Origin: an uncultured Paraglaciecola sp.
GTDB lineage: Bacteria; Pseudomonadota; Gammaproteobacteria; Enterobacterales; Alteromonadaceae
Direction of reading: 5' to 3'
Length of the DNA: 54,026 nucleotides
Assembly: GCF_913020055.1 (NCBI RefSeq)
Contig: NZ_CAJWCF010000016.1
Span: 1-54,026 of the forward strand
Below are positions 35,314-44,882 of the stretch, one piece after another. Numbering within the stretch: position 1 is the stretch's first letter; each line of letters starts with the position of its first letter. A model generated the notes under the pieces. The model saw only the letters and a list, made by a program, of their open reading frames with translations, did no database searches and was not told where the DNA came from. The translations under genes were made by a program, and so were the position numbers.

Positions 35314-35679
35314 ATGTTGCGTTTTATTGTAGTTACGTTTGAAATTTTGGCATTGATAATGATTTTGCGCAGTGCATTTGTGCAATTTTGGTTAACTGAC
35401 GTGCAAACAACTACATCACAGTGGATGCTTGATATATCCATGACAATTGACAACCAACAGCTGACTAAGTTTAGACAAGATATTTCGGCCCATGTACAAG
35501 GTTTAACCGAGCCACAAACAGAATATTTGCATAGAATTACCAGCACAAAAACTGAACTGAAGAAGTTTAACCAACATTATTGTCGCGCTGGTGACAAAAA
35601 TCCTTTCATCTATGGAACAAATTTACACTATGTCTGTGGAGAGATCAGTCGAAAGGGTATTATTGATAAAATTAGTTAA
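35314..35679 (+). CDS. hypothetical protein with N-terminal anchor, 121 aa
   Basis: Not recognised. One N-terminal helix (VVTFEILALIMILRSAFVQF, residues about 5-26) anchors the protein or acts as an uncleaved signal. The rest is a soluble polar region (QLTKFRQDISAHVQGLTEPQ) with two late cysteines (HYC and YVCGE) that could bond in the periplasm. It has no strong ribosome site, although a TTGACT element lies about 80 bp upstream. It is convergent with the histidine kinase and overlaps its 3' end by 8 bp. It may be a lineage-specific protein. Confidence 0.55.
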   Translation: MLRFIVVTFEILALIMILRSAFVQFWLTDVQTTTSQWMLDISMTIDNQQLTKFRQDISAHVQGLTEPQTEYLHRITSTKTELKKFNQHYCRAGDKNPFIYGTNLHYVCGEISRKGIIDKIS

Positions 35680-36904
35680 AAGGATTGGGCAAGCTAATGA
35701 CAAATTTAGCGCCACCCAATTTGCCTTCTGTTACATAGCAATTTCCTTGATGCCACTCGACAATTCTTTTTACAATAGCTAAACCTAGACCCGCACCACC
35801 TTTTTGTCTATCTCGACTCTCATCAGGACGAAAAAAAGGAGAAAATATCTTTTTACGCATTTCCTGTGATACGCCAACTCCGTCATCCTCTACGCAAATC
35901 TGAATAACGTCTTTTTGTTTGATCACGTATATATCTAACATCTCGTTGGCATAACGTTTACCATTTAATACTAAATTTTCAATGGCCCTTTCTATAAAAT
36001 GTTCATCAGCCAATACATGAGGATCATCACCATAAACCATTACGTTTAAGGTAGACAAGTGACTTCCTTTCAGCCGATCAACTAATTGCTGACATAATTG
36101 TTTAATCGGAATTTCAGCTAAATTCATCTCTGGTATTCGAGCGTCTGTACTGGCGTAATCAAGCATTTCTTGTACAAGGTTTTCCAATTCATTGACGTCT
36201 TGTTGCATACCCAGCCAAGGATTACTCTGCGCTGGAGGATTCATGGCAAGAGCAAATTTTAATCTGGCTAGCGGTGTGCGAAACTCATGTGTTACCGCGC
36301 CACTTAGCTCTCGCTGATTTTGCATAAGTTGGGTAATTTGCCGTCCCATGTTGTTAAGGGATTTTGCTATAGGATAAATCAAAGAGGTTTTACTAATATT
36401 ATTCTGTGCAATGCTCCCATTGGGTTTGACGTCTGAAACGGTTTTTTCTAGGTTTGATAAATCCCGCCATAATGGCCAAAGCCAAAATGCAATAACGCCC
36501 CCTAACAACACGAAAAAAATAACGCTGTAAAGTATAAATTGCCCTGAGTTTGGCCTGTTAATCTGCAATGATATTTCTAGAAGCTGAGTATTTGCATCTA
36601 GTATGTAAATTTGCTCAGTAATGTTTGAGTCACTGAGTACGATTGCTTGGCCATTATGTAATTTTTTTAAATCATTATCTGACCATGCAATATCTGCTAG
36701 ATTGAGCGTTTGTTGAGTGCCTCCCAAGCTTTGAATAAAACTAGGTATATCCACGTTTTGCTGCATGGCAGCTTCAAATACAGGGCCTAATAGTTGAGCA
36801 TTGGTTGATTCTGACTGAGTAAAAAACACTCGCTCAAGGCCAGCGCTCAAACCCACTAACGATAATGCAATAATGAGATATAAACTGATGAATAGGCGCG
36901 CCAT
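35672..36904 (-). CDS. transmembrane sensor histidine kinase
   Basis: 410 aa from ATG 36904, which begins MARLFISLYLIIALSLVGLS just after the response regulator stop; an in-frame ATG at 36955 lies inside that gene. The architecture is TM1 (about 3-22), a periplasmic loop of about 110 residues, TM2 (FILYSVIFFVLLGGVIAFWL), then the dimerisation H-box SGAVTHEFRTPLARLKFALA and an ATPase domain with N-box ENLVLNGKRYA, G1 DDGVGVS and G2 GGAGLGLAIVKRIV. All catalytic residues are present. It resembles the RstB group. It is the last gene of the MipA-DUF3019-regulator-kinase operon. Its signal is unknown; outer-membrane partners in the operon suggest an envelope cue. Confidence 0.92.
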   Translation of the reverse strand: MARLFISLYLIIALSLVGLSAGLERVFFTQSESTNAQLLGPVFEAAMQQNVDIPSFIQSLGGTQQTLNLADIAWSDNDLKKLHNGQAIVLSDSNITEQIYILDANTQLLEISLQINRPNSGQFILYSVIFFVLLGGVIAFWLWPLWRDLSNLEKTVSDVKPNGSIAQNNISKTSLIYPIAKSLNNMGRQITQLMQNQRELSGAVTHEFRTPLARLKFALAMNPPAQSNPWLGMQQDVNELENLVQEMLDYASTDARIPEMNLAEIPIKQLCQQLVDRLKGSHLSTLNVMVYGDDPHVLADEHFIERAIENLVLNGKRYANEMLDIYVIKQKDVIQICVEDDGVGVSQEMRKKIFSPFFRPDESRDRQKGGAGLGLAIVKRIVEWHQGNCYVTEGKLGGAKFVISLPNPFN

Positions 36905-36909
36905 TAAGC

Positions 36910-37611
36910 TTAATCGTCCCACGCATCTGCGACAAAAAAGAATCCCTTGCCCCAAATGGTTTTTATTCTGTAAGGATGTTGGCTGTTGTCTTGTAGTTTT
37001 TTACGTAAACGGGAAATACGCACATCTGCACTGCGATCTAGTCCATCATATTCACGACCAATAACTTCCCTATACAAGGTCGTTCGGTCGACTAAAACTG
37101 AAGGGTTTTCTGCCAACTTCCATAACATGTCAAATTCGTGGCTAGTTAATTGTACATCCTCACCTTTTAGGTGTGCCGAACGTGTTGAACGGTCAATAGT
37201 GAGTTGCCCATACTGTAATCTCTGTAGTGAATTATTCGATGCGACAGAATCAGTGTTTCGACGTAATAGCGCGTTGATCCGAGCCAGTAAAACCCTTGGT
37301 TCAACAGGTTTGATGATGTAATCATCGGCGCCAATCTCTAAGCCAAAAACCTGATCGAAATCATCATTTTTTGCGGTCATAAATAGTAATGGGCCGGGAT
37401 AATAAGGTCTCACTTTTTGGCACAAAGAAAAACCGTTTTCACCTGGCAACATTACGTCTAGAAGCAATATATCAGGTGGCGAAGTTTGCACGTGTTGAAG
37501 TAAGTTTTCACCACTGCTAAGGCGATGAACTATAAAGTCGTTTTCGGTTAAATATTGGCAAATTAAACTACTTAGACGTTCGTCATCTTCGACTAGTAAT
37601 ACTTGTTTCAT
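36910..37611 (-). CDS. OmpR/PhoB-family response regulator
   Basis: 233 aa. The receiver domain (about 1-118) starts MKQVLLVEDDERLSSLICQY. The phospho-acceptor Asp is in ILLLDVMLPGENGFSL (near residue 51), with Thr/Lys switch residues in FMTAKNDDF and YIIKPVEPRVLLARI. A winged-helix DNA-binding domain (about 135-230) contains LTSHEFDMLWKLAENP and the DRSADVRISRLRKKL recognition region. The start overlaps the DUF3019 stop (TGATG), with GGAG upstream. RstA/OmpR-like; it forms a two-component system with the kinase starting 5 bp downstream. Confidence 0.94.
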   Translation of the reverse strand: MKQVLLVEDDERLSSLICQYLTENDFIVHRLSSGENLLQHVQTSPPDILLLDVMLPGENGFSLCQKVRPYYPGPLLFMTAKNDDFDQVFGLEIGADDYIIKPVEPRVLLARINALLRRNTDSVASNNSLQRLQYGQLTIDRSTRSAHLKGEDVQLTSHEFDMLWKLAENPSVLVDRTTLYREVIGREYDGLDRSADVRISRLRKKLQDNSQHPYRIKTIWGKGFFFVADAWDD

Positions 37612-37985
37612 CAAAAAAGACTCCATGGTGGGCGAATTCGTCTGCGTTGGGAGGTGGATTTGGGATATTTGATCAGTAAATGTTTAGAAAGTAGGACTTT
37701 CTGTGATTTGTTTTTCAACTCAAGTAGCGCGTCTTGTTGAATCGCTATAGATATTTCTTTTGGAAAATATGCCAATCGTGAACAAGTTAATAATTGGCCG
37801 TCGAGAAAAAGACAAAGTTGTTCTGAAGGCATATTTTCTGTTTCAATATTGAGGTTAAGCTGACATTCGTCCCCCCTTTTTTGTGCAATACATACACTGG
37901 GTTGTAATGTCCACGCAGGCGGTTGTGCAGCAACCTGATTACAAAAAAAGATACTGCAAAATAATACTATTACTCTCAATTCCAT
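37611..37985 (-). CDS. DUF3019 family secreted protein
   Basis: 124 aa. The signal peptide (MELRVIVLFCSIFFCNQVAA) is followed by WTLQPSVCIAQKRGDECQLN, then MPSEQLCLFLDGQLLTCS. This Cys-rich beta pattern is DUF3019. Four mature cysteines probably form two disulfides, matching an Ig-like periplasmic fold. The gene ends in TGATG, shared with the response regulator start. Upstream, 6 bp separate it from the MipA gene. An A6G6 tract (37871-37882) in the coding region is a potential slippage site. The function of DUF3019 is unknown; its conserved place between MipA and a two-component system suggests it modulates signal input. Confidence 0.85.
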   Translation of the reverse strand: MELRVIVLFCSIFFCNQVAAQPPAWTLQPSVCIAQKRGDECQLNLNIETENMPSEQLCLFLDGQLLTCSRLAYFPKEISIAIQQDALLELKNKSQKVLLSKHLLIKYPKSTSQRRRIRPPWSLF

Positions 37986-41744: not shown

Positions 41745-41769
41745 TCGACTATTCCAACGGAATAGTCGA
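41745..41769 (-). terminator. terminator overlapping the diguanylate cyclase stop
   Basis: TCGACTATTCC, loop AAC, GGAATAGTCGA: an 11-bp perfect stem. On the minus strand it is followed by CTTTTTATCATTTTTATTTT. The stem contains the stop codon of the 41749-43383 gene. Confidence 0.75.
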
Positions 41770-43383
41770 AGAATAAAGACTATATGATTGTTTGCCTGCT
41801 TTTTTAGCATTGTACAGGGCTGAATCGGCGTGATTAATCAGTGCTTCTGGCGTTAATATAGCATTGGGCTGTGACGTAGCAATGCCAATGCTTATAGTCA
41901 CGTAATCCGCTACGTTGCTGTATTCATGTGGTAGTGCTTTGTTTTTTAGTTGTTCAATAATGTGTGTTGCAATGTCCTGTGCCCCTTTTGAATCAGTATT
42001 TGGCAGTACACAAACAAATTCTTCTCCTCCAAACCTGGCAACAAAGTCGCTTTCTCTTTGCAGTGAATCAGAAATAACCTTAGAGACATCCTTTAAACAT
42101 TGATCGCCTCTTAAGTGACCATAATTATCGTTATACAATTTGAAACAATCTATATCCATGAGTAATAAGGAGATACTAGATTTTTGCCTAACAGATAATT
42201 CAATATCATGTTTTAAGCGGATGTCTAAAGCTCTTCGGTTAGCTATGCTAGTTAGCCCGTCTAACATGGATAATTGTTCAAGTTTTTGTTTTTGTATCTC
42301 AATTGTTTGGGTGAATTCTTTGAAAGCTTCAGCTAAATCGGTTATTTCGTCGTTACCATCCAATATAGTTTGATATTCAGATCCTTGAGTTTTGTTGCGA
42401 ACTATTTGGTTGAAAATACGGATCCTTTTAAGTACTCGTTGTTGAAATAATATGACGATTATTAGCAGAAAAACGACACCACCAATCAAAATGAATCTTA
42501 TCAGGTGCGTTTGTTTTTTCATTTCTGTAACAGACAGGGCAACCTGACTAGTAATGTTTTTTTCAGTCTCGTTGGTAACAAACCCCAACTGCGCAACGTA
42601 ATCTTCAATTAAGTTATGTACAAAATTTTCTCGGCCAATGGCCCTACCTTCCAAGCGAAGCGATTTTATTTTTAACGCTTCCAGTCCATTCTCACTAAAC
42701 AGTAATGATTTAAACTGCTTAGTTAATTGATTTCTAACTGTCTGATTCTGTTCTTTGGAAGAAATGACGTCTAATTCATTAAGCTGCTCACTTAATTGAT
42801 TAAACAAAAACCTCACACGTTGCAGCTTTTTCTCATTTAATGCTCTGCCAACATTCACTGAAGCTTGCGAAAATCCAAGTACCCAAGAGGAAGAACTGGG
42901 GTTTTCAAAACTTACAGACTGAACGTTCAGTCTATACATTTTGGTCGTTAATAATTCGATATTATTGTTAGTTATCAGGCGGTCTTCTATCAAAGCAGAT
43001 AATTCATCTAGTTCTATAGCTATTGTGTTTAACTGGGTATCTAAAAATTCATTTTCGAAAATTTCATCGGCGGCCTTACGAATATTAACTAAGTTAGTTT
43101 GGAGTTGTTTTTCGGCTAAACGTTTTGACGCATTTGATGTCGCTTTTGATAGAAACTCAGTTGATTCTAAGAGTTTGGCTGATTGACTATAGAGCTGACT
43201 AATTCGTATTAGATTGGGTAAAGATTTATCAGATACATCTGTCAGTGTTGATTCAAAACTAAGCAAACGTGTAAAAGTAAAATAACTAAGTAAAATAAAG
43301 ACAAACAATATCCCTATTAAACCCGCACTAAATACCTTAACAAGTGAAACACGAGCCCCTTTTTTTGCAGTTGATACAGTCAT
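41749..43383 (-). CDS. transmembrane diguanylate cyclase (GGDEF)
   Basis: 544 aa. TM1 (about 17-36) and TM2 (about 297-318, FILIGGVVFLLIIVILF) flank a 250-residue, mostly helical periplasmic domain (LPNLIRISQLYSQSAKLLES). This is reminiscent of the TorS/four-helix sensor type that binds a periplasmic partner. A HAMP-like linker (QTILDGNDEITDLAEAF) leads to the GGDEF domain with LDGLTSIANRRALD, LLLMDIDCFKLYND and an active GGEEF (residues 452-456). An RESD I-site (443-446) lies five residues before it, so product inhibition is expected. It makes c-di-GMP at the inner membrane. It overlaps the UshA-like gene by 4 bp, so the two are coupled. Confidence 0.93.
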   Translation of the reverse strand: MTVSTAKKGARVSLVKVFSAGLIGILFVFILLSYFTFTRLLSFESTLTDVSDKSLPNLIRISQLYSQSAKLLESTEFLSKATSNASKRLAEKQLQTNLVNIRKAADEIFENEFLDTQLNTIAIELDELSALIEDRLITNNNIELLTTKMYRLNVQSVSFENPSSSSWVLGFSQASVNVGRALNEKKLQRVRFLFNQLSEQLNELDVISSKEQNQTVRNQLTKQFKSLLFSENGLEALKIKSLRLEGRAIGRENFVHNLIEDYVAQLGFVTNETEKNITSQVALSVTEMKKQTHLIRFILIGGVVFLLIIVILFQQRVLKRIRIFNQIVRNKTQGSEYQTILDGNDEITDLAEAFKEFTQTIEIQKQKLEQLSMLDGLTSIANRRALDIRLKHDIELSVRQKSSISLLLMDIDCFKLYNDNYGHLRGDQCLKDVSKVISDSLQRESDFVARFGGEEFVCVLPNTDSKGAQDIATHIIEQLKNKALPHEYSNVADYVTISIGIATSQPNAILTPEALINHADSALYNAKKAGKQSYSLYSSTIPLE

Positions 43384-44882
43384 TGAGTCACCTGCTTAAT
43401 TCTTGATTCAATTTTAGGAAAAATAGTTTTTTGCTGTTGTATCACACGGATCACAATATCAGACAATAATGGCGATATTTGAGTGAATTTATCATTGTGT
43501 AGTGCGTTCACAAATACTTCGTAACCATCCCCTCCATTAGCTAAATAATCAGACGTGGCGACGGTATAATCTTGTTGAGGCTTTAATTCTTTTCCATTGA
43601 CGAGTAACGTTTTTATTCGATTACCAGCAGGTTCTTCAAGGGAATAAGTAAAAAATATACCTGAAACATGCAAAAATTTGCCTTTCGCATTTTCGACTTC
43701 ACTGACACTATTTTCTAATGCTTGTTTTAATTGTGCTCCTGTCAAAGTCAAGACTGCCACATGTGCTCTAAAAGGTAACTCAGTGGCTATGTCTCTGCGG
43801 CTTATGATAGCTCCTTTTGTATAACTTTTATCACCACGGATTATTCCTCCATTGACTAAACCAACGTCTGTTTTAGCATAGTCTTTTAGTGCGTCAGCTA
43901 TAAAATTTCCAAAAGGCATCTCTTTCGTTCGAACTAGACTTCTGGTTGTATGTATTTCAGTACCAAAAAAACCAATTTTTTGATCCAGTAGTCTATTCAG
44001 CCTTTGATTATATTCGTCAACCAATAATGAAGTGGTTGGTATCGAGGGCAAATTTGAGTAATAAATTTTCGGTGTATCAATCGTCAGGTTTTTCACTTGG
44101 TTGTTAGTATTCCAATTCATTTTAAGTAACATGAATGGCTCTTTGTACGAAATTGAATAGACTTTGTTTTGTTGAAGCTGGTCGATGCTAATTTGGCCTG
44201 TTGGCCTTACTCTCAATGCAAAGTCTATTTGTTTTTCAGTTATGAGAGTTTGGTAATAATCCCTTTCTTTTGAGTAAACCAAGACCACTAATTCGGCGCC
44301 TTGTTTCTTAAGAGCGGCAATGTGATCCTGAATAACCTGTCGAGGTTCAAATACATTGACTCTTTTAAGCAGATACTCCTCCACTACCTCTTCGTCTAGA
44401 ATCGAAATAAAACCCACTTTTGTGTTATCTTTTTCGACTAATAAACTGGATAAAATGCCTTCTAGATTACCTCTAATCATTGGGTCATAAAGGTTACTGC
44501 TGACTATTGGAAAGGCCGCCTCATAAGAACGCAACGTGAGCTCATCTTCGAAATAGCTAAATTCTCGTTTGGTGAGGGTCATTAAATCAGGTTCTAAGGT
44601 ATTTAGAATATCAATGATGTGCGAACCTCGGTCTAAACTGGACAAAGGACTTGGCCCTAAACTACCCCCAGCAAATGTAAATATAGTCGGGGTGTCTTGT
44701 CTTCTCATTTCTTCTAGTAAGCCTGCTAGGCCTGCGTAAGTGCCATAGGTATGTACACCAATGTCTGGCATGTTACCGGCAAATACTAAGGTTAATTGTT
44801 TTTCAGTTGTTGAAGAAGCACTTAACAGCGTACTCAACAAAAGTGCATGCAGGACAATTAAAAGTCGAAAACTCTTGGCCAA
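43380..44882 (-). CDS. UshA-like 5'-nucleotidase homologue lacking metal ligands
   Basis: 500 aa with a signal peptide (MAKSFRLLIVLHALLLSTLL). The overall fold is that of periplasmic 5'-nucleotidases: an N-terminal metallophosphatase domain (30-270) and a C-terminal substrate-binding domain (about 320-480). The C domain is well kept (GNFIADALKDYAKTDVGLVN with GGIIRGD, and YTVATSDYLANGGDGYEVF). The N domain has lost its metal ligands: the D-x-H motif is AGNM (35-38), GGD is GGS (72-74), GNHEFD is TKREFS (104-109), the His of TH-x-G is Ser204, and GGH-x-H is RVRPTGQ (224-230). It is probably inactive, a binding protein for the coupled diguanylate cyclase (inference). Confidence 0.85.
   Translation of the reverse strand: MAKSFRLLIVLHALLLSTLLSASSTTEKQLTLVFAGNMPDIGVHTYGTYAGLAGLLEEMRRQDTPTIFTFAGGSLGPSPLSSLDRGSHIIDILNTLEPDLMTLTKREFSYFEDELTLRSYEAAFPIVSSNLYDPMIRGNLEGILSSLLVEKDNTKVGFISILDEEVVEEYLLKRVNVFEPRQVIQDHIAALKKQGAELVVLVYSKERDYYQTLITEKQIDFALRVRPTGQISIDQLQQNKVYSISYKEPFMLLKMNWNTNNQVKNLTIDTPKIYYSNLPSIPTTSLLVDEYNQRLNRLLDQKIGFFGTEIHTTRSLVRTKEMPFGNFIADALKDYAKTDVGLVNGGIIRGDKSYTKGAIISRRDIATELPFRAHVAVLTLTGAQLKQALENSVSEVENAKGKFLHVSGIFFTYSLEEPAGNRIKTLLVNGKELKPQQDYTVATSDYLANGGDGYEVFVNALHNDKFTQISPLLSDIVIRVIQQQKTIFPKIESRIKQVTQ

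Follow-up and report, generated by a model that had tools for sequence, protein, structure and literature searches.

Why would a secreted protein of the 5'-nucleotidase family, with the residues for catalysis replaced, be encoded by a gene that overlaps that of a diguanylate cyclase? The question is raised by two genes, which we call U and D, in the window (the whole stretch of 54,026 nucleotides analysed here, from an uncultured Paraglaciecola sp.). An earlier note on this DNA had read U as an UshA-like protein with changed metal-ligand motifs, overlapping the start of D with its stop, and had proposed the pair as a periplasmic nucleotide or phosphoester sensor for c-di-GMP. On the minus strand, a gene that we take, from its sequence, to be valS is followed by U, which starts with TTG, and then by D. 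The overlap of the two genes is indeed there, in the form of an ATGA (Table 1). The hairpin at the D stop codon is weak on its own as a terminator, such hairpins being no commoner in the scanned region (3) than in shuffles (2.9 expected).

Table 1. Coordinates of the features of the U/D locus in the window
Feature	Coordinates	Strand	Basis
U: secreted 5'-nucleotidase-like protein, catalytically dead as judged by its residues, 500 aa	43380..44882	-	ORF, Pfam, UshA map, model
D: predicted diguanylate cyclase, 544 aa	41749..43383	-	ORF, Pfam, motifs, model
Overlap of U stop and D start, ATGA, 4 bases	43380..43383	-	
Codons of U residues 105-112 (KREFSYFE)	44547..44570	-	Arithmetic from start codon
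5_nucleotid_C domain of U, residues 313-458	43509..43946	-	Pfam
Terminator-like hairpin with T tail, spanning D stop codon	41745..41769	-	

Fold, active site and pocket of U

U has a putative signal peptide at residues ~1-25 (by eye), followed by a degenerate phosphatase domain (~27-260) and by the C domain. Pfam matched only 5_nucleotid_C in the window's protein (2.2e-43). The AlphaFold model is a complete 5'-nucleotidase fold (mean pLDDT 86, pTM 0.80), with pLDDT below 50 at residues 107-110, inside the replaced motif. Foldseek searches with this model gave 3ive and 2z1a as the best matches by E-value and TM-scores of up to 0.75, to CD73 (9hjg_A). By its two-domain fold, its 5_nucleotid_C domain (found in all 36 aligned U proteins) and its substrate-side residues, U resembles UshA, CpdB and CD73, and it probably derives from a 5'-nucleotidase and is periplasmic. 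It differs from these enzymes in its replaced metal and catalytic residues, and Pfam scans at E-values up to 1 found the metallophosphatase domain in none of the 36 proteins. No other 5_nucleotid_C protein was found in the window's genome (92% complete), which may therefore be without a canonical UshA or CpdB. Two genomes of the same genus (G007 and G017) have an active-looking 5_nucleotid_C protein as well.

We mapped the residues of U onto E. coli UshA, whose numbering we use for the family. The roles of the UshA positions other than H117, F429 and F498 are those that we assume them to have; H117 and the base clamp formed by F429 and F498 are described in passages of PMC7922932. Every metal and catalytic position mapped from UshA is replaced in U: D41, D84 and N116 by N37, G73 and K105; H117, D120 and H217 by R106, S109 and S204; H252 and Q254 by R226 and T228. 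There is no His at the position of H43. The UshA motif NHEFD corresponds to the KREFSYFE region of U, in which K105, R106 and S109 stand at N116, H117 and D120. The dimetal ligands and the catalytic H117/D120 of an active 5'-nucleotidase are absent, and the substrate-side residues of the C domain are present: the arginines R375, R379 and R410 (R314, R318 and R349 in U), D504 (D452), and the clamp aromatics F429 and F498 (F371 and Y446). This map, the Pfam match and the fold model bear out what the earlier note had said of U, including the retention of a C-terminal substrate-binding domain.

The catalytic site of U thus appears to be gone and the residues of its binding pocket kept. A possible precedent for binding without cutting is the H117A variant of CpdB, which according to passages of PMC7922932 is essentially inactive on 3'-AMP, with little change in its inhibition by adenosine. 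Simple decay of U was considered and rejected, since the replacements K105, R106 and S109 are conserved, as expected of fixed replacement: among 86 relatives linked to a diguanylate cyclase (see below), R replaces H117 in 80, K replaces N116 in 73, and S replaces D120 in 74. Beside the clamp, U has a new arginine, R372, which is conserved in 97% of the 90 proteins linked to a sensor partner; the position is G in 62% of the 40 unlinked ones.

The membrane partner and its kinship with TorS

D has transmembrane segments at residues ~15-40 and 292-316 (by eye), with a helical periplasmic sensor between them, and a GGDEF domain at residues 373-532 (Pfam, 8.8e-49). Residues 318-361 gave a weak HAMP match, below the cut-off (0.035), and Pfam scans gave no EAL match in this protein. 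In its AlphaFold model (mean pLDDT 86, pTM 0.47), residues 14-332 form long helices, with GGDEF after them. The motifs, GGEEF and an RxxD I-site, are as in diguanylate cyclases; these and the helical periplasmic domain had all been named before, and all were found. By its domain, GGEEF and I-site, D is predicted to be a diguanylate cyclase (DGC). The 86 linked D sequences have GG(D/E)EF in 84 cases and RxxD as well in 83, the exceptions being one degenerate sequence (L049), one cut by a contig end (L117), and one without the RxxD pattern (L119).

The earlier note had compared the layout of the locus with that of TorT/TorS. The parallel probably extends beyond layout, because the sensors of D and TorS are likely to be distant homologues. 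With hhalign, the profile of 83 D sensors matched seven TorS sensors at 98.9% (E 1e-16), and three sensors of histidine kinase (HK) partners of U relatives at 100% (E 7e-59). Reversed controls gave 0.3% and NarX 0.5%; Tap (16%) and Tar (51%) matched in the TM2/HAMP columns only. Single TorS sequences against the D sensors gave 77% (E. coli) and 88% (a relative, L163), over about the first 150 sensor residues. The apparent kinship is a weak one. In the genome search, the Pfam TorS sensor model picked out two of the 36 D genes, that of G067 just over the cut-off and that of the window (6.4e-4) below it, and it also matched a Bacillus subtilis control. In hmmscan, the same model matched 2 of the 36 D proteins (best 2.5e-5) and gave no match in the window's D at E-values up to 1. 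TorS was not among the 50 matches listed, out of 911, in the Foldseek search with the D model (E up to 10), which were led by GGDEF proteins.

TorT has a periplasmic-binding-protein fold and docks on TorS. As in the E. coli layout, the gene of a separate periplasmic binder here adjoins that of a membrane protein with a helical sensor, and some relatives of U and D have a kinase output. U differs from TorT in having a nucleotidase fold instead of a periplasmic-binding-protein fold, and the output in the window is GGDEF. The pair also recalls YfiBNR, where a periplasmic protein controls a membrane diguanylate cyclase: YfiR, a small protein unrelated to nucleotidases, represses YfiN. The TorS sensor is treated in passages of PMC8534201. 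NspS/MbaA, a polyamine receptor of Vibrio according to passages of PMC8967002, likewise combines a periplasmic binder, the polyamine-binding NspS, with an inner-membrane c-di-GMP enzyme, and the ligand-bound binder is thought there to favour synthesis. MbaA has GGDEF and EAL (same passages), unlike D, with its lack of an EAL match.

Distribution and origin of the pair

We searched 147 genomes, the window's own included, for full-length U (E<1e-90) and for full-length D sensors (E<1e-80). Both were found in the same 36 genomes, none of the 147 had one full-length gene without the other, and 111 had neither (among them G015, of the same genus). The other U matches did not come near these (best 1.6e-18) and lay mostly in the C domain, and other matches of the D-sensor profile covered only the TM2/HAMP end. 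U and D adjoin in all 35 pairs outside the window, and overlap in 30 of them (with start codons chosen by a script). The pair lies beside valS in 24 of the 35 cases; in the other 11, there is no valS within the fetched stretch, which at L068 begins just 0.6 kb before U. The neighbours at these 11 loci, read by eye, are diverse and name no ligand; apart from recurrence between the related L034 and L068, and an upstream pair of transporter-like and regulator-like genes that L064 and L066 have in common, no shared neighbour stood out. Since U and D form an orthologous family in 36 of the 147 genomes, with fixed replacement motifs, it is confirmed that the observation is more than chance.

A scan of contigs with the U alignment gave 114 relatives, many from genomes already sampled, of which 80 were surveyed. 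These come from Paraglaciecola, Alteromonas, Aestuariibacter, Rheinheimera, Arsukibacterium, Psychromonas, Psychrosphaera, Nitrincola, Marinomonas, and others. An adjacent ORF matched the GGDEF profile at 74 of the 80 loci (L117 being cut by a contig end), and at L132 the adjacent ORF is a sensor whose GGDEF lies in another frame. The other five had neither: at three, the neighbour is a histidine kinase that carries the sensor, and the two from Microvirga have no sensor partner. In the former (L142, L143, L146), the relative of U is followed by a kinase with HisKA, HATPase and receiver domains, in which the D-sensor profile matches the N-terminal part at ~2e-47 or better. The Microvirga proteins keep all seven catalytic residues scored below, and are followed, some 165 bases on, by a histidine kinase whose Cache sensor gives no match to that of D. 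A kinase neighbour alone therefore means little.

Wider searches added members on both sides. Two more full-length proteins (L153 and L154), both unlinked and intact, came from the class search of 369 genomes. The phylum search matched 56 of 398 genomes, 5 of them known members, and we examined 33 of the other 51 with their neighbourhoods. At L219, the gene is followed by a hybrid kinase carrying the sensor (2.1e-45), and near the other 32 loci there was no D-sensor match within the stretch covered. In Azospirillum, the protein of A. brasilense Cd keeps none of the seven catalytic residues and precedes a hybrid kinase with the sensor (4e-36); that of A. lipoferum 4B keeps one, and the next ORF combines PAS and a kinase ATPase domain with the sensor (2.1e-27); that of Azospirillum B510 keeps all seven and has no sensor partner. 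The output is a histidine kinase at L142, L143, L146, L219 and L252, in place of the GGDEF of the window's D. The linkage to GGDEF genes that the earlier note had expected holds for most linked relatives and gives way, in a few deeper lineages, to linkage with a histidine kinase bearing the same sensor. Because of these lineages, the conserved unit is, as far as the sequences tell, the dead protein with the helical sensor, whatever the output. At L037, an intact nucleotidase locus, a GGDEF gene without a D-type sensor lies nearby on the opposite strand.

We scored seven catalytic residues (D41, D84, N116, H117, D120, H217, H252) in 130 distinct proteins: 86 DGC-linked, 4 HK-linked, and 40 unlinked, the last being those without a D-sensor match among the neighbours in the stretch covered, which is short for E. 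coli UshA. DGC-linked proteins keep 0-2 of the seven residues, HK-linked ones 1, and unlinked ones 5-7. H117, D120 and H217 are lost in all 90 linked proteins, and N116 in 86. On the pocket side, all 90 linked proteins have R379, R410, D504 and aromatic residues at the two clamp positions, and 73 have R375; among the 40 unlinked proteins, R379 is kept in 36, R410 in 40, D504 in 36, and the aromatic pair in 40. Loss of the ligands and linkage to a signalling gene, which the earlier note had suggested might go together, co-occur in every protein examined.

This co-occurrence was placed on a quick tree of 92 rows, with SH-aLRT support only, the catalytic columns and the Azospirillum rows left out, and 48 of the 86 DGC rows retained after thinning at 62% identity. 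A branch with a support of 100 divides the linked proteins from the others, and within the linked group the cyclase-linked ones are a single clade (support 100). Since the linked proteins form one clade, loss and linkage are, on this tree, one evolutionary event and not repeated tests; with no independent origin of ligand loss to compare in it, the association is firm but unreplicated. The kinase-linked rows lie at the base of the linked side, with a support of 85 for their order, and two long outgroup branches join, with unsure placement. That a kinase output preceded the cyclase output is only suggested.

Proposed function and alternatives

How might such a pair work? We consider it fairly likely that U binds a ligand without cutting it and acts as co-receptor to a TorS-like membrane receptor; the ligand is probably a nucleotide or phosphoester. 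A nucleotide-like or other phosphoester compound would bind the pocket of the C domain, and K105, R106 (and R372) would provide positive charge where the metals sat, so that the ligand is held uncut. The two lobes of U would close on it, one of the two states of U would dock on D, at its helical bundles in the periplasm, and the change would pass through TM2 and HAMP to set the activity of GGDEF and the level of c-di-GMP. In the few deeper lineages, the module of U and sensor would drive a histidine kinase instead. A fuller scenario, which we put forward tentatively, is that there is a class of bacterial receptors in which an inactivated 5'-nucleotidase came to serve a TorS-like membrane receptor as its sensor of extracellular nucleotides or phosphoesters, perhaps with a kinase first and c-di-GMP later, the cue being free nucleotides from lysis or from extracellular DNA in biofilms or on particles.

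The identity of the ligand leaves room for a variant that overlaps with this reading: the ligand might be anionic without being a nucleotide, in a pocket retuned by R372. The contrast between linked and unlinked proteins at this position fits such a change, but the clamp and D504 are kept, and we find the variant rather unlikely. Less probable still is a role of U as a ligand-independent repressor or scaffold of D, in the manner of YfiR and YfiN, with the pocket as a fossil. Linkage and catalytic loss would fit it equally well, but one would then have to explain why R379, R410, D504 and the aromatic pair persist in all linked proteins, at frequencies at least as high as in the unlinked ones.

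Acidic residues at two of the lost positions raise the idea of a rebuilt metal site, with residual enzyme activity and hydrolysis coupled to signalling: D or E occupies position 41 in 62 of the 86 DGC-linked proteins, and D occupies position 252 in 46. We judge this very improbable, given that the window's U has N37 and R226 there and that the losses of H117, D120 and H217, and nearly always of N116, run through all linked proteins. As for chance or the inertia of an operon keeping U and D together, the frequent location beside valS is what it would predict, but it hardly accounts for the 11 pairs that hold together with no valS nearby, for the kinase-linked relatives with the same sensor and a different output, or for the lack of any genome with one full-length gene alone; we give it almost no credence.

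The co-receptor reading would make U a case of an enzyme family turned into a receptor subunit, in which one branch of the tree bears both the loss of catalysis and the sensor partner. To our knowledge, most of the periplasmic binders known to control membrane receptors are binding proteins of the transporter type. No nucleotidase-like partner of a diguanylate cyclase or histidine kinase appeared in the titles and abstract openings among the matches listed by our literature searches, which included few subscription journals, and the terms 'nucleotidase' and 'extracellular nucleotide' are absent from the main text of a review of c-di-GMP sensing (PMC8846402). The 'UshA' of PMC6755745, going by the passages available, is an unrelated usher, not the nucleotidase. 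We conclude that U and D form a receptor-like architecture that is real and of which we found no description in the literature searched.

If the proposed function is correct, c-di-GMP signalling would have an external nucleotide or phosphoester input, and marine bacteria would probably be informed of nucleotide-like compounds outside the cell. The family would also allow the exchange of outputs behind a single sensor to be tested, and one of its members occurs in a cultured soil bacterium, Azospirillum brasilense. At one of the kinase-linked loci (L143), the kinase is followed by a gene with receiver and GGDEF domains, so that the kinase version may reach c-di-GMP there through phosphotransfer.

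Kinase-linked dead U proteins

The catalytically dead 5'-nucleotidase-like protein (U) of Azospirillum brasilense Cd is WP_035678109.1, and a hybrid kinase (WP_059399370.1), whose sensor is the same as that of the diguanylate cyclase D, starts 5 bases downstream. This pair provides a culturable model for experiments. At locus L143, the receiver-GGDEF gene encoded after the hybrid kinase suggests a phosphotransfer route to c-di-GMP.

Coordinates of kinase-linked, neighbouring and aberrant features
Feature	Location	Remark
Dead U and hybrid kinase pair	L252:5890-10466	A. brasilense Cd, plasmid p3
Receiver-GGDEF gene	L143:9343-10257	9 bases past the hybrid kinase partner of dead U
Response-regulator and sensor-kinase ORFs	window 35672-37626	identified by eye
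D homologue with FAGEQF	L049:4865-6511
D apparently in two frames	L132:6428-8036	MAG

Other nucleotidase-family genes

In two Microvirga loci (L149 and L150), the gene of an intact nucleotidase-family enzyme precedes that of a histidine kinase whose domains are Cache, GAF, and HWE. The sensor of this kinase is unrelated to the D-type sensor, and enzyme and kinase perhaps represent a parallel pairing. At locus L248 of genome G653, three consecutive genes of the nucleotidase family share a strand and have the same order, two of them identified by profile match and the third assigned by eye.

The window's genome and atypical pairs

Dead U was the sole 5_nucleotid_C protein found by searching the whole genome of the window, which is 92% complete. 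Close to the U/D pair, and outside it, the response-regulator and sensor-kinase ORFs share 46 bases when the longest starts are taken.

In a single case (L049), a D homologue has FAGEQF at the site of GGEEF; judging by this motif, it is perhaps an inactive cyclase. The pair of a contig titled Arcobacter (L110) groups with gammaproteobacterial pairs, and was possibly misbinned or transferred. The D of L132 is apparently divided over two frames, which may be an assembly error.
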